A DNA stretch of 64,000 nucleotides from Halomarina salina. GTDB taxonomy: Archaea; Halobacteriota; Halobacteria; Halobacteriales; Haloarculaceae. A program made the translations under genes and the position numbers. The stretch covers positions 1 to 64,000 of the forward strand of contig NZ_JALLGW010000005.1 in the NCBI RefSeq assembly GCF_023074835.1, in the 5' to 3' direction. Each line of letters begins with the position of its first letter. Position 1 is the stretch's first letter. The notes under the pieces are model-generated. The model ran no database searches, was not told where the DNA came from, and saw only the letters and a program-made list of their open reading frames with translations. Positions 1-20,964 of the stretch are shown piece after piece.

Positions 1-1
1 C

Positions 2-133
2 CGCTGCAGCCGATTCCGACACAAACCGGCGTATTGGGAACATATCGGGCACCGCTGGCGCGGTGCCCTTGCCCTCTTCGACTTTCAGCCGCAGCTCTCG
101 CTATCAACAATCTACTTCGCAAGAGCGTTATAA
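2..133 (+). CDS. 3' end of an unidentified gene cut by the window edge
   Basis: An open frame enters from the left edge and ends at the TAA at 131-133. It gives about 43 residues, rich in aromatic and basic residues (contains HIGHRWRGALALFDFQ). I do not recognise the family; a transposase tail is possible. The frame is uninterrupted but too short for a firm call. Confidence 0.3.
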   Translation, partial: RCSRFRHKPAYWEHIGHRWRGALALFDFQPQLSLSTIYFARAL

Positions 134-152
134 AGTAAATAATCCCCGCTTG

Positions 153-233
153 ATGACAGACGAGTACTTTGAATCTGTATTCGAGAAGTTTGAGGAGTTG
201 GCTGAGACGGCGCGGGCCGCCGAACAGTCGTAG
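153..233 (+). CDS. possible 26-residue leaderless small protein
   Basis: The ATG at 153 opens a 26-residue acidic frame (MTDEYFESVFEKFEELAE...) predicted to be one amphipathic helix. A TATA-like TTATAAA at 128-134 lies at the distance expected for a leaderless haloarchaeal transcript starting at the ATG. The stop is followed at once by a perfect 16-base palindrome. The acidic composition suits a halophile, but a frame this short could be chance. Confidence 0.35.
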   Translation: MTDEYFESVFEKFEELAETARAAEQS

Positions 234-249
234 CTCCGAACGTTCGGAG
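234..249. repeat. perfect 16-base palindrome
   Basis: CTCCGAACGTTCGGAG is fully self-complementary and starts one base after the stop codon of the small frame at 153-233. It also lies about 40 bases past the end of the leftward gene at 289-1437. It could be a protein-binding site or a transcript-end hairpin. Confidence 0.4.
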
Positions 250-288
250 ATCTAACCCCTCGATTCCAATGGAACCCGTCCCGAGGCG

Positions 289-1437
289 TCACTCAGACGG
301 ATTATCCGCCTCAACCAATTCCTCATCTGTCTCTTCCGCAGGATCATTCAAAAACGTGTCCTGGTACTCACCGTCAACGACCCGGTGCGCACGGACCTCG
401 TAGTTCAGATGCTCCTGGCCATACTCTGATCGATCCGGCGGATCATCCACGTACCGGAAACACTCAACAAAGACCGTGCGTGGATGCAGCTTCTCACGCT
501 GATTCAGCTGGATGACGTCCACAGTGTTCCAGACATCCCAGTCCGTCTCCCCAACAAAACGGTCAATCAAATCGTCCAGGTACTCTTCGCTGGCCTCGTA
601 GTTAGCCGCCCCACCGAGTTCAGTATCATACGTCTCGTGATGCGGTGCCGGATCATCCAGTCGAGACGGCACCACCGGCGCCGACACGTCGTGCTCATCT
701 AATGTCTCCTCGACCTCTGCCCGGAGCTCATCATCAGCTCCCGGCGAAAGGATGACGCGATTGATCAGCGTATCCATATTCGCAGACAGGTTGACGTGGG
801 ACGGATTGTCCGGCCTGCTCTCGGGTGGCATCTCTTGACCGTCCGTCCGGATTATCGGGTTGCCGCCCCGGTTCGTGAGCAGCCGGAACTCTTGCTCGCT
901 GTCGAACGTTCGATGTTTGTAGAAGTACAGGACGTATGGAATCCCGGTCGGCGTAAATTCCTCCTCGTAATCCAAGTACCGGACAATACCCATATACAGA
1001 TCCTCTTGATCGGGCGCGATGAACTCCTCTATCTGCCGGTACGTGGTCTCGATCGCTACTCCTCGACCATCTGCGTACATCTCCCAGATCTCTGGGTCCT
1101 CATCCGTCCCGAGCCGCCAACAGCTCGCGTAGTAATTCTCACGGGCCGCTTCACGTGCCTGTTCTATTCCGCTGGCAAGATCCATCTCCTCGCCGTTGTT
1201 GAGAATCATCGATTCGGTCCGCTCCGAACGCTGCCCCTCTTGTTCACGGGCTGGTTCAGAGGCCTGGCCCTCGCGTTCTTCGTATCCCTCGGCTTGGCCA
1301 GCGCGGAACCCGTTTTCGAGTGTGTCGGCGAAGTGTCGGAGGGGTTTGTAGCGCCGGACGATCATCTGGTCTGAGGGTATCATCCATTCGGTGTCTTTGC
1401 CGGTGACCGGGCGGCGGGAGGGATCGCCTGATGTCAT
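289..1437 (-). CDS. DUF2971-family-like protein
   Basis: A 382-residue acidic soluble protein. The middle part (about residues 100-190) has the pattern of DUF2971 proteins: a C-W-x-x-G segment, then PEIWEMYADGRGVAIE, and later YFYKHRTFDSEQEFRLL, where the K and the E-x-E-x-R are the conserved family features. The first 95 or so residues are low-complexity and may not all be translated; MIVRRYKPLRHF at residue 25 is an alternative start. DUF2971 proteins are often found in phage-defence and abortive-infection neighbourhoods, and the CBASS operon follows in divergent orientation, but the biochemical role is unknown. Confidence 0.65.
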   Translation of the reverse strand: MTSGDPSRRPVTGKDTEWMIPSDQMIVRRYKPLRHFADTLENGFRAGQAEGYEEREGQASEPAREQEGQRSERTESMILNNGEEMDLASGIEQAREAARENYYASCWRLGTDEDPEIWEMYADGRGVAIETTYRQIEEFIAPDQEDLYMGIVRYLDYEEEFTPTGIPYVLYFYKHRTFDSEQEFRLLTNRGGNPIIRTDGQEMPPESRPDNPSHVNLSANMDTLINRVILSPGADDELRAEVEETLDEHDVSAPVVPSRLDDPAPHHETYDTELGGAANYEASEEYLDDLIDRFVGETDWDVWNTVDVIQLNQREKLHPRTVFVECFRYVDDPPDRSEYGQEHLNYEVRAHRVVDGEYQDTFLNDPAEETDEELVEADNPSE

Positions 1438-1676
1438 TTCCTTCGAATTATCCTCTTCACTACTTGTAGGCGACGACGATGAGGCCGGGTACGAACATTC
1501 GGTGTCACGACTTTCGAGGAGCGAAAACCAGTCGAAGAGCGTCCCGAAATCTACGGGTTATCGTGGCTGTCGAGAAGGGTGTGGAAATTATATACACAGG
1601 AATATGAAACAAAAAGAAGCAATCCATATCTTCGATATCGTAGAATGGGCACCACACTAGTGAGTGGGTCTTGGGT

Positions 1677-1767
1677 GTTTCCGGAAAAGCTGTTTTCCGC
1701 AGTCAAATTTGGGGGACGCAAAGCGATAGCGATGACTCTCCACAGCAGTAAGAGCTTTTCCGGAAAC
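1677..1767. repeat. 15-base inverted repeat upstream of orc1
   Basis: GTTTCCGGAAAAGCT at 1677-1691 is repeated perfectly in inverted orientation at 1753-1767, with 61 bases between. The left arm also forms an inner hairpin (CGGAAAA, 4 bases, TTTTCCG) at 1682-1699. The cluster lies in the 380-base gap between the divergent DUF2971-like gene and orc1. It could bind the adjacent initiator (origin or autoregulation) or another regulator. Confidence 0.6.
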
Positions 1768-1771
1768 AACC

Positions 1772-1796
1772 CGGTCAGGCTTTTATGACCTGACCG
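1772..1796 (+). promoter_or_regulatory. palindrome enclosing the orc1/CBASS TATA box
   Basis: CGGTCAGG at 1772-1779 and CCTGACCG at 1789-1796 are perfect inverted 8-mers. The 9-base spacer CTTTTATGA contains the likely TATA box, about 31 bases before the orc1 ATG at 1819. A dimeric regulator bound here would block TBP/TFB, so this reads as an operator on the orc1 promoter and, by read-through, CBASS. Confidence 0.55.
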
Positions 1797-1818
1797 AAAA
1801 TCAGACTATCAGAATCAA

Positions 1819-2847
1819 ATGATCCGCGATGCTCGCGTTCTCCGCGCCGGGTTCGTCCCTCGGGAAGTTGAGCATCGCGAGGCCGAAGTCAACCACCTCT
1901 CCAGTGTTCTCGAGCCCATCACGAACGGAGAACCAGCCGACACAGCTATCGTCACCGGACCCAGCGGAACGGGGAAGACCTGTATCTCGAAATTCGTCAC
2001 GGAACGACTTCGGGAAGAAGTTCTCGACGTCGAGACCACCTACGTCAACTGCTGGCGCAACTACACGCGGTTCCGCACGCTTTACCAGATCCTCGACGCC
2101 CTCGGCGCGACCATCGACATCCACCGGCAGTCGACGCCGCATGACGAACTCGTCGACCGCCTCCAGCAGCACGACGGCCCGCGAACGGTCATCATCCTCG
2201 ACGAGGTCGACCAGCTCGAAGACCCCAGCGTCATTTACGACCTCCACAGCCTCCCGCAGTTCGCGATCATCTGCATCGCGAACAAGGAAGAGGAGCTGTT
2301 CAGCCGCGTCGACGACCGCCTCGTGAGCCGACTGCGCTCCAGCGAGCACGTCCGGATGGACAAGTACCACGACGAGCAGCTGTACGACATCCTGAGTGCT
2401 CGGGCAAAGTGGGGGCTCGACGAGGACGTCATCACCGACGACCAGCTCTACCGGATCGCCGACGCGGCCGCCGGCGACGCCCGCCTCGCAATCGGCATCC
2501 TTCGTACGGCCGCCGGCAAAGCAGATCGCGAGAACCACGAGCGCATCACCGACGACATTCTCCTGGACGCCGCCGAGGATGCTCGGGCCCAGATCAAGCA
2601 GAAGAGCATCGATTCACTCACGCCACACCAGCGCATCGTCTACGACATCGTTCGTGAGCACGGCCCGCTCGGCCCAGGCGAGATTCATGACCACTATACG
2701 GACGAGGTGGACGATCCCCGGACGAAACGGACCGTCCGGTCCTATCTCTCCAAAATGGCTCAGTACAACCTCCTCGAGGCCGAGGGCACGAGCCGGGATC
2801 GAGAATACGCGATCATTGAGTCACCGCCAGCTGCAACAACCACTTAA
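1819..2847 (+). CDS. orc1: Orc1/Cdc6 replication initiator
   Basis: A 342-residue AAA+ initiator. Walker A is VTGPSGTGKT (about residues 45-54), Walker B is TVIILDEVDQL (about 122-132), followed by the sensor segment ending in RLVSRLRSS, the AAA+ lid (AAGDARLAIGILR), and a C-terminal winged helix from about residue 255 (SLTPHQRIVYDIVREHGPLG). Archaeal Orc1/Cdc6 binds origin boxes and loads MCM. The protein is shorter at the N-terminus than chromosomal Orc1, as is common for plasmid copies. It sits 24 bases before the CBASS operon in the same direction, and pieces of a related C-terminus recur at 7592-7668 and 9321-9455. Confidence 0.9.
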   Translation: MIRDARVLRAGFVPREVEHREAEVNHLSSVLEPITNGEPADTAIVTGPSGTGKTCISKFVTERLREEVLDVETTYVNCWRNYTRFRTLYQILDALGATIDIHRQSTPHDELVDRLQQHDGPRTVIILDEVDQLEDPSVIYDLHSLPQFAIICIANKEEELFSRVDDRLVSRLRSSEHVRMDKYHDEQLYDILSARAKWGLDEDVITDDQLYRIADAAAGDARLAIGILRTAAGKADRENHERITDDILLDAAEDARAQIKQKSIDSLTPHQRIVYDIVREHGPLGPGEIHDHYTDEVDDPRTKRTVRSYLSKMAQYNLLEAEGTSRDREYAIIESPPAATTT

Positions 2848-2851
2848 AACG
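2843..2851 (+). promoter_or_regulatory. possible internal promoter for the CBASS operon
   Basis: CTTAAAAC overlaps the orc1 stop codon and lies about 22-29 bases before the CD-NTase ATG at 2872. This is the spacing of a leaderless haloarchaeal promoter, so CBASS may be transcribed independently of orc1. Confidence 0.35.
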
Positions 2852-2871
2852 TTCCAGAACATCGATACACC

Positions 2872-3996
2872 ATGACCACACTCCCCACACTGTTCGAGAC
2901 CTTCCTGTCAAAGATCCGCCCGCAGGACGAGCACAATGATGCCTACAAGGAGGGCCACGAGACCCTCCGCGATCACTTGCAGAGTGACGATGACATCGAC
3001 GAGTTCTACATTGCAGACTTTCTACAGGGGAGCTATCGTCGGTGGACGGCACTCAGACCGCAGGAAGACGAGAAATCCGACGTTGACGTGGTCTTTGTCT
3101 CTGATCTCAGCAGTAATCTCGATACCGATGTTGCGCTAGGAAAATGCGAGCCGTTCCTGGATGAACACTATGAGGGACAGTGGGAACCAAATGCGCACTC
3201 CTACAAAATCGAGGAAGAGGAGGTGGAGATCGATCTGGTCTTGACAGCGGCACCCAGCGAGGCAACACGCGACGTCGTCAAATCGCTGGGTTCACTGGAC
3301 GTGGGAACAGCCCTGAGTCCGGACGACCTTTCAAGCGTGGCGGAGGCCCTCAATATGTCGGCAGATGGCGACGACGAGTGGAAGGACGAACCGCTCAAAA
3401 TCCCACATCGAGATGAGAACGAGTGGGAAAATACCCATCCCCTTGCAACTATCGCCTTCACCGTTAATAAGAACGATATCACGGATGGTCACTACGTGAA
3501 CGTCGTCAAGGCCATCAAATGGTGGCGGCGAACAAAGACACCCGACGTCGAAGGGCCGACAAGCTATCCCCTCGAACACATCGTCGGCCAGTGCTGTCCT
3601 GATGATATCGACAGCGTCGCTGAAGGCGTAACAAGGACGCTCGAAGAACTCACACGGCGGTTCAAGACCGACGCATTGGCTGAGGAAACCCCCGTCTTGC
3701 CTGCTCACGGGCTCCCGGAAAACCCCGAGAATGACGTCCTCAAACAAATCGACGGGGACGATTTCGCGGCGTTCTACGATGAGGCAGAGGATGCCGCAGA
3801 GCTCGCGCGAACAGCGCTGGATGAGGAGGACAAAGAAACAGCGAGGGAGTACTGGTACCAGCTCTTCGGTGAGCAATTCCCTCCGTTCGGAAGTGACGAC
3901 GACACTGACGATGGAGGAGAGAAAGCGATGTCAGTGGGGTCGTCCTCACAGGTAGAGGATCCATCTGACCACCAGTTCGCCAAGTCGGACAGCTGA
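2872..3996 (+). CDS. cdnE-like: CBASS cyclic-oligonucleotide synthase (CD-NTase)
   Basis: A 374-residue nucleotidyltransferase of the cGAS/DncV-like (CD-NTase) superfamily. The active site is visible: LQGS at residues 51-54, KSDVDVVF with metal-binding Asp70 and Asp72, and the third acid Asp121 in VEIDLVL. The helical C-terminal part follows, ending in a low-complexity tail. On phage sensing, such enzymes make a cyclic di- or trinucleotide that activates the effector. Here the effector has a SAVED domain, which in characterised systems binds cyclic trinucleotides, so a trinucleotide product is likely (inference). It is the first gene of a three-gene operon, with 8 bases to the next ATG. The CBASS genes look less GC-rich than the conjugation genes, suggesting separate acquisition. 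The gene symbol is generic; the clade was not determined. Confidence 0.9.
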   Translation: MTTLPTLFETFLSKIRPQDEHNDAYKEGHETLRDHLQSDDDIDEFYIADFLQGSYRRWTALRPQEDEKSDVDVVFVSDLSSNLDTDVALGKCEPFLDEHYEGQWEPNAHSYKIEEEEVEIDLVLTAAPSEATRDVVKSLGSLDVGTALSPDDLSSVAEALNMSADGDDEWKDEPLKIPHRDENEWENTHPLATIAFTVNKNDITDGHYVNVVKAIKWWRRTKTPDVEGPTSYPLEHIVGQCCPDDIDSVAEGVTRTLEELTRRFKTDALAEETPVLPAHGLPENPENDVLKQIDGDDFAAFYDEAEDAAELARTALDEEDKETAREYWYQLFGEQFPPFGSDDDTDDGGEKAMSVGSSSQVEDPSDHQFAKSDS

Positions 3997-4004
3997 CGTA
4001 ACAA

Positions 4005-6341
4005 ATGCCTCCCCACGAAATTACAGAAGCCATCGCAGCTATTGCCGAACGAGACGGAGTCACCGTCCTCAAAAACCCATATCGAGACGATAGCAACGGA
4101 CGGTGGATCGTTAAAATCCGACTGTGTCCCGACGACTTAGTACCCCATCCGGACGTGCCACGCGAGACGGACTGGTATGTCCATCTACGGGATACATACC
4201 CCGCCGGTTCAATTGGGATCTACCCTGCGGATCAAGAAGGGAACACCATTACCGCCACATTCCCCCACCAGAAGCTGAACGTGGCTGGGAGCAACGATAC
4301 TGCATGGCGAAGAGGCGATATCTGTGTTGCTCGGTATGGGCACACCCTCAGTCAAACGGGAGCCACCGGCGAACCCAGCACAAGCCGTGATCGACTCTGT
4401 TGGCATATAGACCGAGCATTGCGGTGGGTAAGTAATGCTGCGAAGGGGGAACTCCGGGAACCAGACGAACCGTTTGAAATCCCGGCCTTCGATACGAACT
4501 CGGCTTCGGCCCCGACCATCGCATTCAACGAGACGCAGGAGTCGTTCTCAGATTGGAGGACGGCGTATGGACAGTGGGGGACAGTCAATCTCCGCTCGTT
4601 GCCAACTGCTGAAGAGACATACGCGACTGTTACGTTCAAAGATAGCGACGATGAAGTCGTCTATCAGCCACAATGGGGCGGATATATCGATTCGAATCCT
4701 GATGACTCTGTTTCCGGAGCGTGGGCACTGTTAGAAGAGGTGCCGATTGAACCCCCGTGGGAGGCCCCAGAGACGTGGGAACAGTTAGACGTATTTTTCG
4801 AGGGTACCGAGACCGACCCGTACGAACTACGGGCGAATATTAAGCCCGTCTTAGACGATGAGCCGGTCAAGGTCCTTCTAATTGGATTCCCCATCCCAGC
4901 AACGGTTGGCGGCGACCCCGAGATCATCTATTGGCAACCAATCGAAATAAAAGAGTTCAAAGATCCGAATGACCTCTCCGGCGGATTTCGAGATACTGGA
5001 AAGGGGCCTGAGATAGCCGAACGGCGGGAAGCCGGAGAGGAACAGATTCGGTGGCTGGACTCGGACAACTGGTCGCATGAGCAGCTCACCAGACGCGGGC
5101 ATATGACAGAGTGGTTTCTAGATCGCAACATCGTACTCATCGGAGCGGGAGCGCTCGGCAGTATGGTTGCTGAGAACCTCGTTCGAGCCGGCTGTAAACA
5201 GCTTACCCTCGTCGACAATGATACGTATGAGATCGGCAACGTGGCTCGTCACACACTAACAATCGATGAGGTGGGGCGAAACAAGGCGACAGCAATCGCG
5301 GACCGGCTCGAATCCATTGCACCGTACGCCCAGGTCTTTGATGTGGATAGCGCCTTTCCACCGAGCGGTGAGTTGCCGGAGCCAATTAGAGAAGCGGAGG
5401 TAGTAATTGACTGTACCGCGTCACGGGGAGTTCGTCGCGCTCTGGATGCGATTAGATGGAATCACCCGGTCGTGTTTTGCTCCGCTGCGATGGGTCGGCG
5501 AGCGAACCAGTTGTTCTGCTTCACAGCTTACTCACATACGTTTCCGTACAGAGATTACAACGAAGCGTTCGATCCATGGCGGTTGCAAGAACAGATCGAA
5601 TGGGACGAAGACGAGGATGCCATCCCCGAACGAGTGGGCTGCTGGCACCCAGCATCAGTTATCCGAACGGACCGGGTGATGACGTGGGCTGGGACAGTGA
5701 CACGGCTTCTTGATCAGGCGACGGCATTGAGTCTGCGCGAGAATCACTTCACCGTACTCGAGACCGGTAGTGACGACGAGCTGCCGACTATTTCACAGGC
5801 CACACCTCCCTACCAGGACGGAACAATATGGCGAGCGCCGGAATCACCAATCACCGTACAGATTCCGGCCACGTGTCTTGAAGCGATGTATGATCGCTGC
5901 CGAAAGGAACATCCATGTGAAACGGGCGGGATTCTGGCTGGTACCGACCGTCTCGATGGACCAGCACTGGTGGTTAATGCCCGAGACCCACCGCGGGACT
6001 CCATTCAAGAACCAACTCGATTCCTCCGAGGAACCGACAAAGTCGAGGAGTGGCTCAAAGACGCCAGAGAGAGCATCGGCATCGACTATCTCGGGGAATG
6101 GCACTACCATCCCGGCGCATCACCCAATCTCAGTCGGGACGATCGAACTGCGATGAATGAAATCGCCAACGACGACGGCTACGACTGTCCGCATCCGCTC
6201 CTCTTCATCGTTGGTCAGGACGAAGAGGGTCAGTTCTCGATTAACGCCTATCTATTCCACGATAGTAAGGAATACGAGCAGTTAGAACGGATTGACAACC
6301 CAGATGCTGCTTCAACTCTCAACGTCGGTGACGATATATGA
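4005..6341 (+). CDS. cap2-cap3: CBASS E2-E1-JAB fusion protein (Cap2-Cap3)
   Basis: A 778-residue three-domain protein. Residues 1-160 are an E2-like domain with likely catalytic Cys107 (GDICVAR) and a following helix HIDRALRWVSNA. Residues 365-575 are a ThiF/E1 adenylation domain: IGAGALGS at 379-386, VDND at 403-406, NVARH, and candidate catalytic Cys546 (RVGCWHP). Residues 615-765 are a JAB/JAMM protease: Glu639 (CETGG), His700-x-His702-P-G and Ser710-x-x-Asp713. In type II CBASS, Cap2 (E1-E2) conjugates the CD-NTase C-terminus to targets and Cap3 (JAB) removes it; these are usually separate genes. All catalytic residues appear intact in one chain. The stop overlaps the ATG of the effector gene (ATGA), so translation is coupled. 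Confidence 0.9.
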   Translation: MPPHEITEAIAAIAERDGVTVLKNPYRDDSNGRWIVKIRLCPDDLVPHPDVPRETDWYVHLRDTYPAGSIGIYPADQEGNTITATFPHQKLNVAGSNDTAWRRGDICVARYGHTLSQTGATGEPSTSRDRLCWHIDRALRWVSNAAKGELREPDEPFEIPAFDTNSASAPTIAFNETQESFSDWRTAYGQWGTVNLRSLPTAEETYATVTFKDSDDEVVYQPQWGGYIDSNPDDSVSGAWALLEEVPIEPPWEAPETWEQLDVFFEGTETDPYELRANIKPVLDDEPVKVLLIGFPIPATVGGDPEIIYWQPIEIKEFKDPNDLSGGFRDTGKGPEIAERREAGEEQIRWLDSDNWSHEQLTRRGHMTEWFLDRNIVLIGAGALGSMVAENLVRAGCKQLTLVDNDTYEIGNVARHTLTIDEVGRNKATAIADRLESIAPYAQVFDVDSAFPPSGELPEPIREAEVVIDCTASRGVRRALDAIRWNHPVVFCSAAMGRRANQLFCFTAYSHTFPYRDYNEAFDPWRLQEQIEWDEDEDAIPERVGCWHPASVIRTDRVMTWAGTVTRLLDQATALSLRENHFTVLETGSDDELPTISQATPPYQDGTIWRAPESPITVQIPATCLEAMYDRCRKEHPCETGGILAGTDRLDGPALVVNARDPPRDSIQEPTRFLRGTDKVEEWLKDARESIGIDYLGEWHYHPGASPNLSRDDRTAMNEIANDDGYDCPHPLLFIVGQDEEGQFSINAYLFHDSKEYEQLERIDNPDAASTLNVGDDI

Positions 6342-7585
6342 CTGATCCAACTGGCCGTGTATTTCTCAGCTATAAGCACGAACAGACGAACGTCGCCAAC
6401 TTCCTGCAAACGGAACTGGAGCGACACGGGGTGCCGATTTGGCGGGATATCTTCGATTTGAAGCCGGAGCCACTCAGAGACGAAATCATCGACCAGTTGG
6501 AGAACCCGGAAACGGCCAGTGGTATTGCGCTCGTCAGTGAGGGCGTAGCCGACTCCGACATCATTCTTAACGACGAGTTGCCGGGATTCAACAAGCGCTG
6601 GGACGGGGATGATGAGTTTTTCGTGGTCGTTGTGCCATGTCCCGATGTCAGCGTTGGAGAAGCCAAATCGATACTCAACGAGGCACCGATCCTCCACGAC
6701 TTTTCCGCCTGGAAAATGCTCCCCCTGGAGGAGACCACGGCTGACAAAGCTACAGAGATCGTCCAGACCGTCTTATCAGAGCGGATCGAGCGGATAGATG
6801 GGTATTTACCGGACGGTGAGCCTCTCGAATGTTCACTTGACACCTACGAATCGCCGGCTCACGACATCGATCCAGCGATTGCTATTGACTGGTCAAGATC
6901 GTTCGAACATGGCCCACCATCCCAAGAAGTATGGAACCAGCGTCTACTCCCGGCCTTAACCACGGTGACGGACTGCCTCATTCAAAACACATCGGGGCGT
7001 CCCCTCCGCTTCCGTGGCCGAACGCATCTTCCCGCTGCGTTTGCGGTCGGTTACTGTCTCCCAACCACACGTCGTATCCAAGCAACGTGGATGCAACCCA
7101 CCGACCCTGCCGGGATGACAGAATGGGCACTCGATATCGACGAAGAGGAAAGCGGGTTAGAAGGAGAGCTCCAGCGACAACCGAATCACGGATCCGAGCT
7201 TGCGGTGCTCGTCAACATCGCGGCCGATGTGCAACCGGAGATAGACCAGATGCATAACAACCTTCCGGATTTCAACGGTGTGCTCAGATTGACACCGGAA
7301 GATGGGCCTGATGTGGAATTGTCCCCGGCACAGGCAGCCCATGCTGCAGATGTTTTCCGTACCAAGGTACGAGACGCGATCAAAGAACTGCCAAATACAT
7401 CGACCATTCATCTCTTCATAGCTGGCCCGATGGGGCTCGCCTTTCTCTTCGGGCGAAACTCAAACACTCTTAGACCGATCCAGACCTACCTCTATAGCAA
7501 AGACGAGGGTCGGTACTATCCTGCTGGTCGATTACAGGATCAGTCACTCTCAGACTGCTCAGGCACCGCCTCAGAAGAGCAATAG
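6338..7585 (+). CDS. TIR-SAVED CBASS effector
   Basis: A 415-residue effector. The N-terminal TIR domain spans about residues 5-150: GRVFLSYKHEQ starts strand A, and LNDELPG carries the candidate catalytic Glu80. The C-terminal SAVED domain spans about 165-405: SELAVLVNIAADVQPEI and IHLFIAGPMGLAFLFGR are the conserved core segments, and a terminal PIQTYLYSKDEGRYYPA matches the family ending. In studied TIR-SAVED proteins, a cyclic trinucleotide bound to SAVED drives filament assembly and NAD+ cleavage by TIR, killing or arresting the infected cell. It is the last gene of the operon and overlaps the previous gene by 4 bases. Confidence 0.9.
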   Translation: MTDPTGRVFLSYKHEQTNVANFLQTELERHGVPIWRDIFDLKPEPLRDEIIDQLENPETASGIALVSEGVADSDIILNDELPGFNKRWDGDDEFFVVVVPCPDVSVGEAKSILNEAPILHDFSAWKMLPLEETTADKATEIVQTVLSERIERIDGYLPDGEPLECSLDTYESPAHDIDPAIAIDWSRSFEHGPPSQEVWNQRLLPALTTVTDCLIQNTSGRPLRFRGRTHLPAAFAVGYCLPTTRRIQATWMQPTDPAGMTEWALDIDEEESGLEGELQRQPNHGSELAVLVNIAADVQPEIDQMHNNLPDFNGVLRLTPEDGPDVELSPAQAAHAADVFRTKVRDAIKELPNTSTIHLFIAGPMGLAFLFGRNSNTLRPIQTYLYSKDEGRYYPAGRLQDQSLSDCSGTASEEQ

Positions 7586-7591
7586 CAAATC

Positions 7592-7668
7592 AGTGCCCAT
7601 TGCCAGAAGAGCATCGACTCGATCATTTCGCACCAGCGCGTCGTCTACGAGGTGATTAAAGGACTGGT
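7592..7668 (+). pseudogene. orc1 C-terminal fragment (proximal piece)
   Basis: The frame reads QKSIDSIISHQRVVYEVIKG, which aligns with QKSIDSLTPHQRIVYDIVRE in the intact Orc1 at 1819-2847 (start of its winged-helix domain). The match stops near 7660 and no start codon or AAA+ domain is present. It begins a few bases after the TIR-SAVED stop codon, so it looks like the scar of an orc1 gene into which the CBASS or neighbouring genes were inserted. Confidence 0.75.
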
Positions 7669-7738
7669 AGGTCGTGTTTTGTTGACCGAGAGAATGCACC
7701 CCCGTGATTTATTACTGCAGGAGCGATTATGTCCTACT

Positions 7739-7861
7739 ATGAGCGCAAAGGGCCAGCTCCGTCGGTTCGAGAACAGGGCGCAGTTGCTGCGCCATATCTC
7801 TGAGGAAACCGGCACGGACATCGACACGCTTTGGGACGAGTACGAAGCCCAAGTCGAATAG
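7739..7861 (+). CDS. 40-residue small protein
   Basis: Encodes MSAKGQLRRFENRAQLLRHI... through EYEAQVE, a charged helical peptide. A TATA-like TTTATTA at 7707-7713 lies about 26-32 bases before the ATG at 7739, fitting a leaderless start. It ends 22 bases before the HEPN-like gene in the same direction, so it could be its antitoxin or regulator. No family recognised. Confidence 0.5.
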   Translation: MSAKGQLRRFENRAQLLRHISEETGTDIDTLWDEYEAQVE

Positions 7862-7883
7862 AGCTCTTTGCTGTTTTTGACGC

Positions 7884-9284
7884 GTGGGCGACGACACTGA
7901 TTTCGACTTATCGTTCGCAATAGATGCAGAGACAGTCTCTCTGAGCCCTATCGGGGAATATCAGGTTCTCGACCTGGAAGGGCCGGTCGTCATCGTTGGA
8001 GATGCGTCGTACCGCGTCGTTCCGGTCGGTGAGGAATCAGACGCGTCAGAAGATGTCCGGGAACTTAGCGTCGACGAGATACGTGCTGCACTCAGCGAAC
8101 TCGCTGACAACGACGACTTTCAGTCAATCGTAGACAATTGCCCGACGAATACGCCGCTCGTCTACGACGACATCGATTATTTGACTCGCCATCTCCCCAC
8201 AACTTCGCTCCAGAAGTGCCAGAAGCTGAGTGAGAGCACCCCTTTCGAGAAGGAATTACTCCTCCAAGTTGCCTACGTAGAACGCCAAAACTCTCTCGTC
8301 GGGCACTCAGACAACGTCCTCGAGTATTATCTCGAACAGCGTACTGAAATCGCTGAAAAACTCCGGTCCGCCGACGAGATCGACAGCGACGTTGAGCGGT
8401 CATTCTTTTCGTATCTCCTCCTCGCCTCGGCACTCATCGAAGAGTTGACGACAGAAACGGTCCTCAACGAGCTCTTTCGCGAGGAAGCTCGTCTCGACAG
8501 CATCACAGAGCACGTTCGGAGTATGGGGCACGCGAAGCGATTAGAGAAACTCTGTGATATCCAAATACTGACCGGAGGTGACCATGGATCGCTTGTCGAG
8601 GTCAAAGGACGTAGAAACAACCTCGTCCACGACGCGCAGAAGCGTGCAGGCCTTGACGAACTCGAATCGCGTCGTGAAGTCGCACAGATTCTCGAACAGA
8701 CTGATCGATGTGCGTCCGTCCTATTGACGATCTCGGGAAAGAACATCGAGTCAGTCATCGCGAAGCGGGGGTGTGAGCCCTATATCGAACACGCTCAATC
8801 TGAGGCAGTAGCCGACACAATCACAACCTGGGAACAGGAGAATCCAGAGCGCCTATCGAGACTGCACGACTGTGAAAGAGCAACCATCGAAGAGATTCGC
8901 TGGGATACCGAAGAGAGTGACCCTGGGAACAACATCACGGAGGGATTCACGTTTGATGGATTTGATGACGAAGAGCTGTATGAGATACTGATGGAGTTCG
9001 TCGGTGATGCCTCACAGGCGTTCCTCGACCGGATTGATGCCGATGCAAACGAGAGCAATCTCGATCGCTTCGATTTCGCAGTGATGGTGCTGCTCTGTGC
9101 TGGTCACAGTTACGAGGAGATTGCCCGGTGGCTGGATACTGACGAAAAGTATGTCCAGCGGAAGGAGAACGTGATAGCCTGGAGAGCTTCGCAGTTCGAG
9201 AAGGATCTGGTTGAGGAGATCCCCCGCCCAGAGGGCCCAACATGGCCATCGGACACGGCATCAGATGATCAGGATAGGTGCTAG
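7884..9284 (+). CDS. HEPN-like protein with C-terminal helix-turn-helix
   Basis: A 466-residue acidic protein with a GTG start. The central helical region (about residues 170-260) contains KGRRNNLVHD; Arg244-x4-His249 with Asn after Arg fits the R-N-x3-H active-site motif of HEPN ribonucleases. The C-terminus (about 405-445) has a sigma-like helix-turn-helix: FAVMVLLCAGHSYEEIARWL then TDEKYVQRKENVIAW. The first 60 residues are beta-rich. HEPN proteins act in toxin-antitoxin and abortive-infection systems, which suits this defence region, but RNNLVH also occurs in non-catalytic HEPN-like families. Two pieces of a decayed orc1 gene lie on either side, so this gene appears to be an insert. Confidence 0.55.
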   Translation: MGDDTDFDLSFAIDAETVSLSPIGEYQVLDLEGPVVIVGDASYRVVPVGEESDASEDVRELSVDEIRAALSELADNDDFQSIVDNCPTNTPLVYDDIDYLTRHLPTTSLQKCQKLSESTPFEKELLLQVAYVERQNSLVGHSDNVLEYYLEQRTEIAEKLRSADEIDSDVERSFFSYLLLASALIEELTTETVLNELFREEARLDSITEHVRSMGHAKRLEKLCDIQILTGGDHGSLVEVKGRRNNLVHDAQKRAGLDELESRREVAQILEQTDRCASVLLTISGKNIESVIAKRGCEPYIEHAQSEAVADTITTWEQENPERLSRLHDCERATIEEIRWDTEESDPGNNITEGFTFDGFDDEELYEILMEFVGDASQAFLDRIDADANESNLDRFDFAVMVLLCAGHSYEEIARWLDTDEKYVQRKENVIAWRASQFEKDLVEEIPRPEGPTWPSDTASDDQDRC

Positions 9285-9320
9285 CCTGATAACAGACGAG
9301 TCATCGTCGCATAGTACGTG

Positions 9321-9455
9321 ATGCTCTCTCAGCGGAAGGTACACATGGATAAGACCGAGCGTAAGCATCTCGAAGACCGCCTCACGGCAGAAGGTACCAT
9401 CCGGAATCGAGAGTACTCGCTCGTCGATTCGGCAGCTGCGTCGCCAATGGAGTGA
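9321..9455 (+). pseudogene. orc1 C-terminal fragment (distal piece)
   Basis: The frame encodes 44 residues (MLSQRKVHMDKTERKHL... TAEGTIRNREYSLVDSA) and ends at TGA 9453-9455. EGTIRNREYSLVDS aligns with EGTSRDREYAIIES at the very C-terminus of the Orc1 at 1819-2847. It completes the fragment at 7592-7668: the two pieces cover the beginning and end of the same winged-helix domain with about 1.65 kb of foreign DNA between. Confidence 0.65.
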
Positions 9456-9473
9456 CCGTGACCCCGTCACCGA

Positions 9474-9672
9474 TCAGGAACTGAACTCGCCGAGGCCCGA
9501 TTGCTCGTGGTCCAGCGGCTCGATGACCTCGGGATCGTCGTTGCCGGGATTGTTGACCCGCGTCGAGATTTCGTAGGCGTCCAGATCGTCTTTCGGGTAC
9601 GGCTGGCACAGTTCCTTTCGGGTGTCCAGATCTGCGGCGAGCCAGTCGGATTCCGCGTCCCTCGGGAGGACG
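9474..9672 (-). pseudogene. 3' fragment of an SRAP (YedK/HMCES-type) gene
   Basis: Leftward frame reading VVLPRDAESDWLAAD, then YEISTRVNNPGNDDPEVIEP and ending LDHEQSGLGEFSS. This is the C-terminal part of SRAP proteins, which crosslink to abasic sites in ssDNA. The catalytic N-terminal half is missing: upstream of about 9672 the same frame runs into sequence that codes for DNA polymerase on the other strand. It is a truncated remnant. Confidence 0.75.
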
Positions 9673-10679
9673 ACCGGGGCTACCTCGTTGACGTGTTGTA
9701 ACCGATTATCGACGCCCGCGACGAGATCAAGGCGGCCATCCGTCGCGAAAATGAGCGGGATGACCCCGACGAGGACCGACTGGCGGAACTCGAGGGGCGG
9801 TCGGGAGCGCTGAAGTGGATTCTCGTCGCTTGGTTCGGGTATCAAGGATTCAGCAACGCGAAGTATGAGAGAATTGAGTGCCACGAGGCAATCAACGCGT
9901 TCGCTCGCGATATTCTGCTTACCGCCAAACAGCGACTGGAGGACGGCGGCTGGCGGGTCGTCCACGGTATCGTCGACTCAATCTGGGTGACTCCGGACCC
10001 CGACGTCGACGACGATGACCTTGAGGGCCTCAAGGCGCTCGTGACGGAAATCACGGAACGCGTCGAGATTCGGCTCGAACACGAAGCCCACTAGGACTGG
10101 GTGGCGTTCGTGCCGCAGCGCGAGAGTAGCGCCGGTGCTTTGACCAAGTATTTCGGAAAAGTCGCTGATGAAGACGAGTTCAAGATACGCGGTATAGAAG
10201 CGCGGCAACGCTCAACGCCGCCGTTCATCGAGACGATCCAGCGTGAGTGTCTCGAACGGCTCGACGAGAGCCGGTCGGCGGACGCCGCACTTGAGCATCT
10301 CCAGGATGCTATCAACCAGCTTCACGCCGGAACGGTGCCGGTTGATGAACTCGTTGAGCGGAATTGTGTCTCAAAGCCACTCGAAGGATATTCACAGAAT
10401 ACGCAGAACGTAGCTGCTTTGAAGCGGGCTCGTGACCAGGACCTGGCCGTCCATCCCGGACAGGATCTCGAATACATAGTCGTCGACGACGAGAAACAGT
10501 CGAGAGACCGCGTCGCCCCCGCCCACGAAGAGGTCGAGACCTACGACGCCTCCTATTACGAGACTCAGCTTATCAGAACTGTCGAGAGTGTTCTATCTCC
10601 CATCGGGTGGAATCGAGACGATATTCGACGACAGCTCGGCGAAACACGAGTAATCGGTATCACCGACTTGGCCAGATGA
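9669..10679 (+). pseudogene. family B DNA polymerase, truncated with two in-frame stops
   Basis: One continuous frame codes for the C-terminal part of a haloarchaeal PolB2-type polymerase: DDRGYLVDVL, PIIDARDEIKAAI, WFGYQGFSNAKYERIECHEA, VVHGIVDSIWV and DWVAFVPQRESSAGALTKYF. The frame is broken by TAA at 9699-9701 (expected Gln between DVL and PIID) and TAG at 10092-10094 (expected Tyr in HYDW). All exonuclease and most palm sequence is absent. The left end abuts the SRAP fragment on the opposite strand. Confidence 0.85.
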
Positions 10680-11045
10680 CCCCTATTTCGCGTTGTGAAT
10701 GGATTAGGGGGAGACCAGACACCCCTATTTCGTGTTGTAAGACACCCCTTTTTCGAGTTGTAAAAGTCGTCTTTTCAGTCGATATAGCTCTTCTATAGCT
10801 AATATCCGGTTTTGGAGGTACTGGCTCGGGTTCCAGAGTGGAAACGAAGGGGTTAGTGAACGGATGGCACTGTTCGATCACTGGGCTGTTCAATGAACCA
10901 CCCCCCTATTTCGAGTTGTAAGCGACGAGATCGGCCACGAGAACAGCGGACATGCGGGTGGACCCCCCTATTTCGAGTTGTAACGCAATACTCGCCTTGA
11001 ACATTGAAGGCCAATATCAGGAGACCCCCCTATTTCGAGTTGTAA
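10680..11045 (+). repeat. six direct origin-type repeats downstream of orc
   Basis: Six same-direction copies of ACCCCTATTTCGAGTTGTAA-type boxes at 10680-10699 (degenerate), 10719-10740, 10742-10763, 10899-10921, 10961-10984 and 11024-11045. Some have CCCTTTTTCGAG in place of CCCTATTTCGAG. The same box recurs on the other side of the initiator gene (12553-13268). They look like origin recognition boxes/iterons for the Orc encoded at 11085-12515. Confidence 0.85.
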
Positions 11046-11084
11046 ACCGCGGGGAGGTCTAGTCCGACTCGGTCAATCGACCCG

Positions 11085-12515
11085 CTAGTTCAGGAACGAG
11101 TTCATCTGCGACTTGGCGACCGATCGCATCATTTCTTCTTCGCGCTCTAACTCTGCGAAACGGTCGTCTTCCAGTATCCGTTCCATGATCGACTCGGGGT
11201 CTTCAGCGAGATCGAAGTGCATGTGGATACCCTTGCCCCTCCCCCGACCACGTCGGTCGAACTCGAGGATACCGTAGGTCGCTTGTTCGGTGACGTGATT
11301 GACGAAGGTCTCTCGTCCGTAGAAATCGGCATCCAGGATGTCGCAGACGTACTGATAGAGGCTGTAGGAAGGACCGGCTGGAATCCAGTCGACACCAGCA
11401 GTTGAATAATAGTCCGTTGCAGCGACGGCGAAGATACAGAGTTTCTTCTGCGTCGACAGCCCCCCGATGTGGCGCAGTTTCCGGTCAGAGTCGTATCGCT
11501 CTTGGGCGGTCCGGACGTGGGTTTCCAACACCCGTTCGTCCCCCTGCTTATCGGCTAATTCGCCGGACCACCGAAGCAGGTCAATAGCCTTCCGTGCATC
11601 ACCATGGGTTTGCGAGCCGAACGCAGCCACGAGCGGAACGACGTCACTCGCGAGAGCTTCTTGTTTGAATGCGTCTTCGCGGTTTCGGAGGATATGTCGG
11701 AGCTGCGTCGCGTCGTAATCCTCGAAGAAAATCTCGTCAGGGTTGAACGAGCTGTTTGCTCGGCTGTTGAGATCAGACATGAAATCGACGTAGTTGGTTA
11801 TCGCGGTAACAGAGACGGGGCCGTCGAAGCGACCGAGATCGCGAGCCCGCGACAACTGGTAGAGAAGCGAATTGTACTCTGGTTCAGAGTATGGACCATC
11901 GAGCATGTCGATCTCGTCGAGAACAAAGATGACGCCATCGTAGTGCTCGCGCATAATTTCCCAGAGGCGCTCGAGTTTCTGGTCTGTCGAGACACCACTC
12001 TCGGGAACACCAGGTTCATCCTCGATATTCATCGTCGCTTCCTGGATCAGACGATAGACAGCGCGACTGGTGGTGCCAGGTCCCTCACAATTTATCGAAA
12101 ACACACCGAACCGCATTCCCTGAGCCTCGCTCAGCTCGACGATTTTCTTACAGACCGCGTGGATAATCAGCGACTTCCCGGTTCCAGACGGTCCGGTCAA
12201 CAACATATCCGGAATCCCCTGACCCTGGAGTGCGGGCTTTAGATTCGTGATGACGGTCTTCAGCTGGTCATCGCGACCAACGATTCGATCTTCGTCGATG
12301 ATGGTGTCGGGGCGAACCAGATCCTTATTCTCGAAGACAGTTTCGACAGATTCGGATTGGAGTTCATCCATGATCGAGATGCCGCTCCCCGAATCACCGA
12401 ATGTAGATTGGCTGGTGTCGGACCCGTCAGAATTGCTCCCCCCATCTCTCGGAACTTCGTCTATAGAACCAGACTGTTCCGTCTGATTATCTATATCCGG
12501 CGGTCCATCACCCAT
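11085..12515 (-). CDS. orc1: Orc1/Cdc6-type plasmid replication initiator
   Basis: A 476-residue AAA+ initiator. An acidic, Ser/Gly-rich N-terminus (about 75 residues) precedes IVGRDDQLKTV, Walker A LLTGPSGTGKS, Walker B GVIFVLDEIDML, a sensor segment and the lid HGDARKAIDLLR, then a C-terminal winged-helix part (STQKKLCIFAVAATDYYS). The C-terminus is longer than in the Orc at 1819-2847 and the two are distant paralogues. The gene is bracketed by matching repeats on both sides, so it is the likely initiator of this replicon. Confidence 0.9.
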   Translation of the reverse strand: MGDGPPDIDNQTEQSGSIDEVPRDGGSNSDGSDTSQSTFGDSGSGISIMDELQSESVETVFENKDLVRPDTIIDEDRIVGRDDQLKTVITNLKPALQGQGIPDMLLTGPSGTGKSLIIHAVCKKIVELSEAQGMRFGVFSINCEGPGTTSRAVYRLIQEATMNIEDEPGVPESGVSTDQKLERLWEIMREHYDGVIFVLDEIDMLDGPYSEPEYNSLLYQLSRARDLGRFDGPVSVTAITNYVDFMSDLNSRANSSFNPDEIFFEDYDATQLRHILRNREDAFKQEALASDVVPLVAAFGSQTHGDARKAIDLLRWSGELADKQGDERVLETHVRTAQERYDSDRKLRHIGGLSTQKKLCIFAVAATDYYSTAGVDWIPAGPSYSLYQYVCDILDADFYGRETFVNHVTEQATYGILEFDRRGRGRGKGIHMHFDLAEDPESIMERILEDDRFAELEREEEMMRSVAKSQMNSFLN

Positions 12516-12538
12516 GTCTCCATCCTCTGTAGGCCTAG

Positions 12539-12549
12539 TATAAATAAAT
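12539..12549 (-). promoter_or_regulatory. promoter of the orc gene
   Basis: Read on the minus strand, TTTATTTATA lies about 25-34 bases before the ATG at 12515, fitting a leaderless or near-leaderless promoter. A degenerate origin box (12553-12576) sits right beside the TATA/BRE region, so initiator binding could repress its own gene. Confidence 0.55.
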
Positions 12550-13045
12550 GAAGGGCACCGATTTCGATTTGTAAACGCGAAGGTTCAACCGACGGAGTGA
12601 CTGAGTCGGCTATCTCTTCTTTTCCAGGCTCGAACCGCTGTCGACGGAGCGGCACACCCCTATTTCGAGTTGTAACGTCTTGTCAAAGACAGAATAGAAT
12701 ATTGAGACACACCCCTTTTTCGAGTTGTAACGTCTTGGTAGCCTCTAACACAGTTTTGAGAATTACGCGATGGACGATTGTATCAAATGGTGATAATAAG
12801 ATGAACGAGTTCCACACGAGCCTCGAGTATAGGACCACAGGGCAAACCACGGACAGCACCCGGTGGAGATCACGAAGCGTCCTCGAGGAATCAACCCACA
12901 CCCCCACCCCTTTTTCGAGTTGTAACGGACAGCGATGACACGGGGAGAGAAGCTGTCGAACACGACGAGAACACCAAGGACGAACGGGAGAGGTCGTCAG
13001 AGCGCGGTTCTCAGAGGCTAACCCACGATCACCTCACTACTCACG

Positions 13046-19098: not shown

Positions 19099-20964
19099 CT
19101 AGACCTCCGGCCCGTTTCCATCGTCGGGCTTGGGTGGCTTGCTCTGGCCGCCCGCTGCTTTCCCGAACTCCGAGCCATTCGAGCCGATCATCGGCCCACC
19201 TGCCCGGCGGCCCGCGGAATACGCGAGGTAGGAGTTGCCACCAACCCCGCCGATCATCGCGGCCGCGCCAGTCTTCGCCGTGAACGTCCCTGCTTTCTTC
19301 CCGGTTCTCACACCCTTCTTGCCGGTCTCCACACGGCGGTTCCGTACAGCGTTCGTTGCGATGTCGCTCTCGGCGGTCGTGATGCGCTCGCTGGCATCCT
19401 GCTGGTCGGCCTTGGCCGCCCGGAACTTCCGCGAGAGGTTGACCGACCGACTCGCTCCATCCGTCCCCATATACGACATCTTCCGGTCGAGGGTATCGGG
19501 GTTGGTCTTGAACTCCGGCTTCTGGTTCTCCATCGGCTCGGCGTCAAGGAAGCCCTGTTTCTTGGCCTCGGCCATGTCTATCTCCTCGTTCGCCATCGCG
19601 TTCTGGATGAATTTCGCCTGCGACGACGCGGTTTTGTGGTCGGTTTGCGCCTCAGACAACGAGGCCTGTGCCGAGTCCAACTTTCCCGACGTCCCGTAGT
19701 GGCCGATACGCTTGGTCGCCTGCTGGTGTGCGCTCTGCTTGACACTGCTGACAGCGCCTTTCGCCCGCGCTGTCATGCGACTCGAGAGGCCGGACCCGCC
19801 GGCCCCGACGTTCGCACTCCCGGCACTCCCCGCGCTCGCTCCCGAGCCCGCGGCCGCGGCACTCGAACCGCCCGCCGCGCTACCGCCCGATGCGCCACCG
19901 GAGGCCGCACCGCCGGACCCACCAGCAGCCGCACCACCGGCCGCGCCAGCGACAGCGCCGCCGACAGCGGCCGTGACAGCCATCGTCGCGACTGCTGCCG
20001 CCTCACCAACCCCGATGGGCTGGCCCGCCCACGAGATGAGCTTCCAGATCGCCACGATGAGCACAACTGGGAAGAGCAGCATCAACGCGAGTTCGGCGAA
20101 GATCAGGCCGGTTTCGCCAGCAACATTCTGAATCATCGCCCCGGCGCTATCGGAACTCCCGCCCGTGGCCTGGAGGATACCACCGTGTTCGATGACCTGG
20201 AAGGCCAACACGATGATGGCGATGATCGGGCCGGCTAACAGCGCGAAGACGCCCATCCGCATGAACGTCGCTCCGACGCTCCCCACCGACTTGAAGGGAC
20301 CACGGCCCACGAACCAGACGACCGCGAAAAACGGCGTCCCGATGTAGGCCATCCAAATCATGAACCAGCGCAGTAGCAGGAAGAATAACGCCAGTAGGAG
20401 CGACAGCACCGCCAGAATCGCGGCGACTATCGAGACGATGAACTTCAGCGTCCACGTGGCGAACGTCGTGGGTGCGCCGACGAGACCGTTACCGTACCCA
20501 TAGTTCGCTACTCCTGGGTCGGGGTCGAGGTTCAGAATCGCCATTGTGACGGCATTCGTCGCGTCGATCGCGAATCCCCAGGCAGGCTGGGAAACTCCGA
20601 TGAACAACAGCACCATCACCGTCCGGACCACGAGGTCCATCAACCCGGACTCGCGGTCCTCACTGAATGGCCACGCGATGAGCGCCAACGCGATCATTAT
20701 CGGGAGCAAGACTAGCGAAATTTCGAATATCCCAGTCCACGCTCCGTTCGCCGCCGTCGAACCGTGTGGGTTCGGGACCTTCAGGAGGCCCTTGAGGAGC
20801 TCGTCAGTGAGCGCCGACGACATCTCTGACGCTGCCGCATTGAGCGTATCAATGAGCCATCCCCAGATTGCCTCTGCGACCGAATCGGGCCCGAGAATCT
20901 GGAGCGGCACTACCGACCCCACCGCGAGCTGCGGAACCATCAGGACCAGCAGCGTGGGGTCCAT
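19099..20964 (-). CDS. VirB6/TrbL-like polytopic membrane protein
   Basis: A 621-residue protein. Residues 1-330 hold about seven hydrophobic helices (FEISLVLLPIMIALALIAW, LVVRTVMVLLFIGVS, FIVSIVAAILAVLSLLLALF, FALLAGPIIAIIVLAF, LIFAELALMLLFPVVLIV). Then comes an alanine/glycine/serine low-complexity stretch (about 330-400) and a long charged helical tail that may be cytoplasmic. This layout is typical of VirB6/TrbL channel components. Its ATG overlaps the stop of the VirB4 gene, so the genes are translationally coupled. Confidence 0.75.
   Translation of the reverse strand: MDPTLLVLMVPQLAVGSVVPLQILGPDSVAEAIWGWLIDTLNAAASEMSSALTDELLKGLLKVPNPHGSTAANGAWTGIFEISLVLLPIMIALALIAWPFSEDRESGLMDLVVRTVMVLLFIGVSQPAWGFAIDATNAVTMAILNLDPDPGVANYGYGNGLVGAPTTFATWTLKFIVSIVAAILAVLSLLLALFFLLLRWFMIWMAYIGTPFFAVVWFVGRGPFKSVGSVGATFMRMGVFALLAGPIIAIIVLAFQVIEHGGILQATGGSSDSAGAMIQNVAGETGLIFAELALMLLFPVVLIVAIWKLISWAGQPIGVGEAAAVATMAVTAAVGGAVAGAAGGAAAGGSGGAASGGASGGSAAGGSSAAAAGSGASAGSAGSANVGAGGSGLSSRMTARAKGAVSSVKQSAHQQATKRIGHYGTSGKLDSAQASLSEAQTDHKTASSQAKFIQNAMANEEIDMAEAKKQGFLDAEPMENQKPEFKTNPDTLDRKMSYMGTDGASRSVNLSRKFRAAKADQQDASERITTAESDIATNAVRNRRVETGKKGVRTGKKAGTFTAKTGAAAMIGGVGGNSYLAYSAGRRAGGPMIGSNGSEFGKAAGGQSKPPKPDDGNGPEV

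Follow-up and report, generated by a model that had tools for sequence, protein, structure and literature searches.

A haloarchaeal type II CBASS operon with a fused E2-E1-JAB enzyme and a cyclase that appears to be encoded as a precursor

The stretch of DNA analysed here (the window) spans the initial 64 kb of a contig of 135,404 bases, in a genome of 4.46 Mb and 10 contigs. It carries three plus-strand ORFs, with spacings of 8 and -4 bases, that encode a CD-NTase (hereafter the cyclase), a single polypeptide with E2, E1 and JAB domains, and a TIR-SAVED effector (Table 1). These genes form one operon, and the operon is a type II CBASS: the sequence includes an intact CD-NTase, the cysteines of a Cap2-like E2-E1 enzyme, a JAB domain of the JAMM type and an effector with a SAVED sensor. 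A sequence-only reading of this DNA had named the same ORFs, spacings and catalytic residues, all of which agree with the ORF list and with an alignment of 28 homologues. Its description of the locus, as a type II CBASS that has a TIR-SAVED effector and combines E2, E1 and JAB in a single chain, is likewise supported by profiles, structures and invariant residues. In overall kind, the system is an ordinary type II CBASS with a fused enzyme that is already in PADLOC. What is unusual is the cyclase, which appears to be a precursor.

Table 1. Features of the CBASS operon, in window coordinates.
Feature	Position	Strand	Evidence
CD-NTase gene, 374 aa	2872..3996	+	ORF call, SMODS, PADLOC, solved CdnD-type structures
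E2-E1-JAB fusion gene (Cap2-Cap3), 778 aa	4005..6341	+	ORF, profile and structure matches
TIR-SAVED effector gene, 415 aa	6338..7585	+	ORF, profiles, 7qqk, invariant Glu80
Ala370 codon of the cyclase, predicted mature C-terminus	3979..3981	+	End point of 10 of 28 fused-system cyclases (Ala/Gly)
KSDS tail after Ala370, four residues, predicted to be trimmed	3982..3993	+	Tail in 17 of 17 close-group cyclases; stop-loss relative to TAG in G224 and G858
E2 catalytic Cys107	4323..4325	+	Invariant in 28 of 28; opposite Ala of 7to3
E1 catalytic Cys546	5640..5642	+	Invariant in 28 of 28; opposite Ala of 7to3
JAB/JAMM domain, about residues 613-760 (borders set by us)	5841..6284	+	Prok-JAB at 622-738, PDLC00890, invariant E639, H700, H702, S710 and D713

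The cyclase matches the Pfam profile SMODS (1.3e-18) and the PADLOC cyclase model PDLC00822 (458 bits), and residues G53, S54, D70, D72 and D121 are invariant in all 28 homologues. Since it is nearest to cyclic AMP-AMP-GMP synthases among solved structures (7ljl, E=2.4e-68; 7to3_C, E=2.9e-68), its signal is likely a trinucleotide. The effector matches the Pfam SAVED profile at 4.1e-29, TIR_2 at 8.6e-06 (26.7 bits, below the cut-off of 28), the PADLOC TIR-SAVED model PDLC02012 at 1.2e-91, and the solved TIR-SAVED protein 7qqk at 3.5e-13. Glu80 of its TIR domain is invariant in 28 of 28 homologues and lies opposite E84 of 7qqk, which we take to be the catalytic glutamate. Given this position and its membership of the TIR-SAVED family, the TIR domain would be expected to cleave NAD+. 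In one assembly, G795 (loci L005 and L072), the frame of TIR-SAVED appears interrupted beyond about residue 255.

The 778-residue protein matches the Pfam profiles ThiF (3e-26) and Prok-JAB (6.2e-11, residues 622-738), and the PADLOC JAB model PDLC00890 matches it at 1.5e-35. The JAB is the C-terminal domain of this protein and has no gene of its own. The Pfam match to Prok-E2_A is below the cut-off (E=0.0056, 16.6 bits against 25); hence, the E2 is assigned from full-length matches. The Cap2 structure 7to3 aligns with residues 20-573 (E=4.5e-83), and the PADLOC model PDLC00835, labelled “E1-E2” and 778 residues long, matches residues 1-778 at 1620 bits. Residues C107 and C546 lie opposite alanines in the 7to3 chain, which are presumably trapping mutants; both cysteines are conserved without exception in the 28 fused homologues, as are E639, H700, H702, S710 and D713. 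The NCBIfam Cap3 model NF050170 gives 24.5 bits against a cut-off of 200, and the JAB part alone has a sole match by sequence, to the peptidase 9ild (E=0.0017). A Foldseek search with the AlphaFold2 model ranks Cap2 7to3 first (E=1.1e-38), and the model, with a mean pLDDT of 69.6 and a pTM of 0.49, is too poor to show where the JAB lies with respect to the active sites of the E1 and the E2. The domain assignment in the sequence-only reading thus stands, with the JAB placed by profiles, and the E2 placed by 7to3 and PADLOC rather than by Pfam.

The fusion is genuine. Each of the 28 full-length relatives, which include the window's own genome and range in identity to the window protein from 41 to 100%, has a single open frame spanning E2, E1 and JAB with no internal stop, ruling out a sequencing fusion. 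The earlier statement that Cap2 and Cap3 normally come from separate genes fits the bacterial relatives examined, but the fused chain itself was already known: PADLOC (2023) includes a 778-residue model of it, and a 2006 paper describes E2-E1-JAB triple modules in other operons (PMC1779556).

A protein search found a full-length match in 14 of 392 genomes drawn from the order. Across five families of Halobacteriales, 28 of 487 genomes are positive (10/146, 12/170, 4/125, 1/18 and 1/28). Seventeen of the 28, the window included, are at least 88% identical and make up what we call the close group: eight belong to the window's family, eight to a second and one to a third. Named records assigned to this group represent Halorientalis, Halogeometricum, Halorubrum, Halosimplex, Halobellus, Natronoglomus, Halogranum, Haloglomus, Halovenus, Halomarina, Halobaculum, Haloarcula and Haloplanus. 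Thirty-two PLSDB records match at E values up to 1e-30; the eight from haloarchaea among them align in one piece across 99-100% of the query, and in Desulfosarcina and Priestia megaterium the JAB has a gene of its own, with an 8-base overlap with the E2-E1 gene. The JAB is also in another frame in G516, a genome from the same phylum but outside the order. Three of five scans of viral contigs gave no match, one gave a single split system (L082) and one gave three. In a tree of the 28 fused and seven split E2-E1 sequences, all fused sequences cluster together (100/100) and the fusion is a single change, on a tree whose outgroup branches are long and drew a warning from the tool.

The window cyclase ends HQFA-KSDS, so that the last encoded residue is Ser and Ala370 lies four residues inside. 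It lacks the C-terminal Gly/Ala that is the hallmark of cyclases conjugated by Cap2, which is present in 10 of 28 fused homologues and 13 of 14 split controls; assignment to type II does not depend on this hallmark. All 17 close-group cyclases have four residues after HQFA: ESDS in 11, and KSDS (the window), VSDS, ASDS, EADS, ESDN and ETDN in one each. The final residue is Ser in 15 and Asn in two. In the nearest relatives, G224 and G858 (74% identical), TAG follows HQFA directly, where the close group has GAG, AAG, GTG or GCG; hence, one base change can yield the tail. A more distant fused system, G393 (53%), has an unrelated tail, EFA-WSN. The other eight fused-system cyclases end FA or FG, so that 18 of 28 are tailed and 10 are tail-free. 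A second strain of Haloplanus rubicundus (L090, outside the 28) has a cyclase that ends QRFA. For two of the tailed genes, the plasmid records give a length of 374 residues. Our literature search, which covered titles and the openings of abstracts, mostly outside subscription journals, returned no tailed cyclase and no haloarchaeal fused Cap2-Cap3.

On the tree of the 28 fused systems, the tail corresponds to two changes. These C-terminal caps therefore probably arose twice in fused systems; two gains are the most parsimonious history, one gain plus losses is also possible, and the branch joining G224 and G858 to the close group is weak (87/50). The fusion does not require a tail, since 10 of the 28 fused systems have none. 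Nor are odd cyclase ends unique to fusions. Our controls were 14 split systems, from Deinococcus (two), Desulfosarcina, Priestia (two), Nostoc, Sphingomonas, four viral contigs, Enterobacter, Salmonella and Klebsiella, and their cyclases end FA or FG with one exception: L082, a type II system on a metagenomic viral contig with its JAB in a separate frame, has a cyclase (positions 4001-5068) that ends RFSQIC. Six of the 14 (three viral contigs, Enterobacter, Salmonella and Klebsiella) appear to be versions of a single enterobacterial system. In Deinococcus actinosclerus the E1 match is weak, in Priestia koreensis Cap2 is split between two frames, and the Klebsiella control was counted from its cyclase end alone. 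Two Spirosoma records lie outside the 14: in S. oryzicola (L088) the cyclase ends in Gln and no Cap2 was found, and in the second (L091) the stretch examined holds no cyclase.

Is the conjugation machinery still maintained beside a cyclase that ends in Ser or Asn? Within the close group, dN/dS is 0.146 for the E2, 0.115 for the E1, 0.102 for the JAB and 0.135 for the cyclase body. Thus, judging from substitution patterns, the three enzymatic domains are kept under purifying selection, and these low values, together with the invariance of the catalytic residues, argue that the machinery is maintained despite the encoded end. For the tail itself, dN/dS is 0.353, similar to the value for the final 17 codons of the 778-residue protein, where its C-terminus is loose (0.387), and four codons are too few sites to show selection for the tail. 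Residues 363-370 of the cyclase have no amino-acid change within the close group; this invariance is weak by itself, since 46 of 367 eight-residue cyclase windows are likewise unchanged. Across the 10 tail-free rows, 174 columns of the 778-residue protein do not vary. A single one of them, Arg753 in the JAB, changes in both tailed lineages, against 0.21 expected by chance: the residue is Asp throughout the close group and Gln in G393. A tie between this change and the tail is only a lead, because two tail-free split systems have the same residues there (Asp in Sphingomonas, Gln in Deinococcus).

How could a cyclase with a Ser end be conjugated? According to PMC10097602, conjugation proceeds through the C-terminal Gly/Ala of the cyclase, a residue highly conserved among 1,583 cyclases from operons with full-length Cap2 and Cap3, and changing Gly to Ser at this end abolished both the thioester and the conjugate; the enzymes were bacterial, and the result may not hold for haloarchaeal ones. 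The cyclase of Bacillus cereus ends KPGGFA (PMC11153139). Cap3 is described as cleaving a linear Sumo-cGAS-cGAS fusion directly after its first cGAS (PMC10097602), and BilC offers a known case of a JAB maturing a modifier, BilA (PMC11354881). From a conjugation machine under selection beside a cyclase with an encoded Ser end, we infer the trimming itself, the JAB as the trimmer, and trimming as the gate of conjugation. The JAB is proposed as the trimmer because it is the sole recognisable protease of the operon, and is of a type known to cut at that point (PMC10097602). We lean, with moderate confidence, towards the reading that the cyclase is a precursor that is trimmed to Ala370 by the fused JAB before the E1 uses it, such that the JAB is needed for conjugation and not just for undoing it.

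We propose the following order of events. The JAB domain would cut after Ala370 and remove KSDS; the E1 domain would then adenylate Ala370, and the cyclase would pass to Cys546 and on to Cys107 of the E2. The E2 would join the cyclase to a target, from which the same JAB could later release it. Upon infection, the cyclase would make a cyclic oligonucleotide, probably a trinucleotide, the SAVED domain would bind it, and the TIR domain would destroy NAD+. What conjugation achieves is debated, with a boost to signalling described in one study (PMC10097602) and a restraint of the cyclase on PspA in another (PMC11153139). In its fullest form, our proposal is that the cyclase is a pro-modifier, capped until the built-in JAB of the E1-E2 enzyme uncaps it, with one polypeptide maturing, attaching and releasing the sensor; we regard the case for this wider statement as evenly balanced.

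An alternative explanation is that the haloarchaeal E1 has shifted in specificity and adenylates the new Ser/Asn end directly, with no trimming. The last tail residue, Ser or Asn in each of the 17, is in keeping with this, and the unrelated tail of G393 also ends in Asn. However, F369 is invariant in 28 of 28 cyclases and Ala370 is present in all 18 tailed forms, although the tail places them three or four residues inside, and the loss of thioester and conjugate upon the Gly to Ser change in the tested enzyme (PMC10097602) also argues against direct use of such an end. We consider a shifted E1 unlikely. Alternatively, conjugation may have been lost in the close group, leaving the tail as a tolerated stop-loss and the cyclase working unconjugated, as in type I CBASS. 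A single base change does account for the tail, the tail codons are loosely constrained, and in one system that has been tested, Cap2 was not required against phage P1 (PMC10097602). This explanation is improbable given the dN/dS of the E2 (0.146) and E1 (0.115) in the 17, and the invariance of C107 and C546, which extends to the second tailed lineage. We similarly doubt that an unrelated host protease removes the tail while the JAB acts as a deconjugase only: the analysis, which covered the operon's own protease, gave no evidence in its favour, the cut must be exact, and the operon has a protease of the type that cuts exactly there (PMC10097602).

Least probable is the model of the sequence-only reading, in which the fusion provides equal dosage and makes conjugation self-limiting and the tail has no role: JAB and E1-E2 do share one chain in all 28 systems, but the equal amounts of ligase and protease, while real, hold for any fusion, the fusion itself may be a neutral outcome given the overlapping split genes of Desulfosarcina and P. 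megaterium, and the conjugation of a Ser-ending cyclase is left unexplained. The sequence points not to self-limiting conjugation but to a tail past a usable Ala, with which the JAB would be needed to start conjugation. The further suggestion of that reading, that the TIR-SAVED effector would have to assemble into filaments to withstand molar KCl, is speculative.

If precursor trimming by the fused JAB is correct, it gives the JAB a direct positive role, with conjugation unable to begin without it. It would also mean that ubiquitin-type precursor processing can arise by a single stop-loss, given a matching protease, and that the processing step of pro-ubiquitin, pro-SUMO and pro-Atg8 has been carried to a modifier without a ubiquitin fold. 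In addition, the 778-residue protein is a naturally covalent E2-E1-JAB enzyme for structural work.

The type II CBASS typified by Enterobacter cloacae (CdnD, Cap2, Cap3 and a SAVED effector) shares with the window a homologous cyclase and E2-E1 enzyme (7to3), the order cyclase, Cap2, JAB, and a SAVED effector. In contrast, on a plasmid of the E. cloacae complex (L089), Cap2 is followed by a JAB in a different frame, the SAVED gene is upstream, and the cyclase terminates in RFA. The E. cloacae-type SAVED protein (Cap4) presumably bears a nuclease rather than a TIR domain. The full-length match to PDLC00835 places the window fusion in the same fused family, although the label of that model names E1-E2 only, with no JAB, and the cyclase tail lies outside it. 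The 6A triple module found with a metallo-beta-lactamase (Iyer 2006, PMC1779556, in part; NF058523, 6A-MBL cap2_3) also has E2, E1 and JAB in this order in one chain, whereas the partner of the window fusion is a CD-NTase. Membership of 6A-MBL was rejected: NF058523 gives 238 bits against a cut-off of 320, and none of ten neighbouring proteins scanned matches MBL. In BilABCD, as in our proposal, a JAB exposes the reactive C-terminal residue of a modifier (PMC11354881, from passages); that system differs in having a ubiquitin-like modifier, separate enzyme genes and no cyclase. The effector has the architecture and Glu position of TIR-SAVED 7qqk, but the similarity is just 52.5 bits.

An Orc1/Cdc6-like gene (1819-2847) lies directly upstream of the cyclase, and a piece from the 3' part of such a gene recurs just behind TIR-SAVED (2599-2645 and 7604-7650; 47 nt, 83%). 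The repeat exceeds 200 nt in L002, L006, L041, L044 and L062, which suggests that an orc gene was the insertion site of the CBASS cassette. Defence probably does not depend on Orc, since it is in pieces in L002 and only its C-terminal part matches in L003. A block of about 7.9 kb (1757-9677) is common, in whole or part, to the close-group loci at 85-95% DNA identity across haloarchaeal genera. Its ends recur, on the left at 1750-1758 in most close-group loci and on the right at 9677 in nine, and the block looks mobile.

Within this block, a 466-residue ORF (7884-9284) has no Pfam, PADLOC or NCBIfam match below E 0.04; nine of 19 related loci retain it at 93-97%, and it has no match in L006, L007 and L044. 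Short ORFs at 9474-9965 and 10101-10679 match only the C-terminal parts of SRAP peptidase and family B DNA polymerase, respectively, and are probably decayed genes beside the cassette. On the minus strand at 289-1437, a 382-residue protein matches the PADLOC candidate PDC-S31 (1.7e-08) and, weakly, DUF2971 (0.029), and is possibly the product of another defence gene. The G+C content of positions 1-13000 is mostly 52-59%, compared with mostly 57-66% elsewhere in the window, which is consistent with a foreign island. Further along, 20964-23285 (minus strand) and 41453-43660 (plus strand) have HerA/VirB4-like ATPase matches (DUF87, AAA_10) and an NrS-1 polymerase-like HBD domain, as would fit a plasmid.
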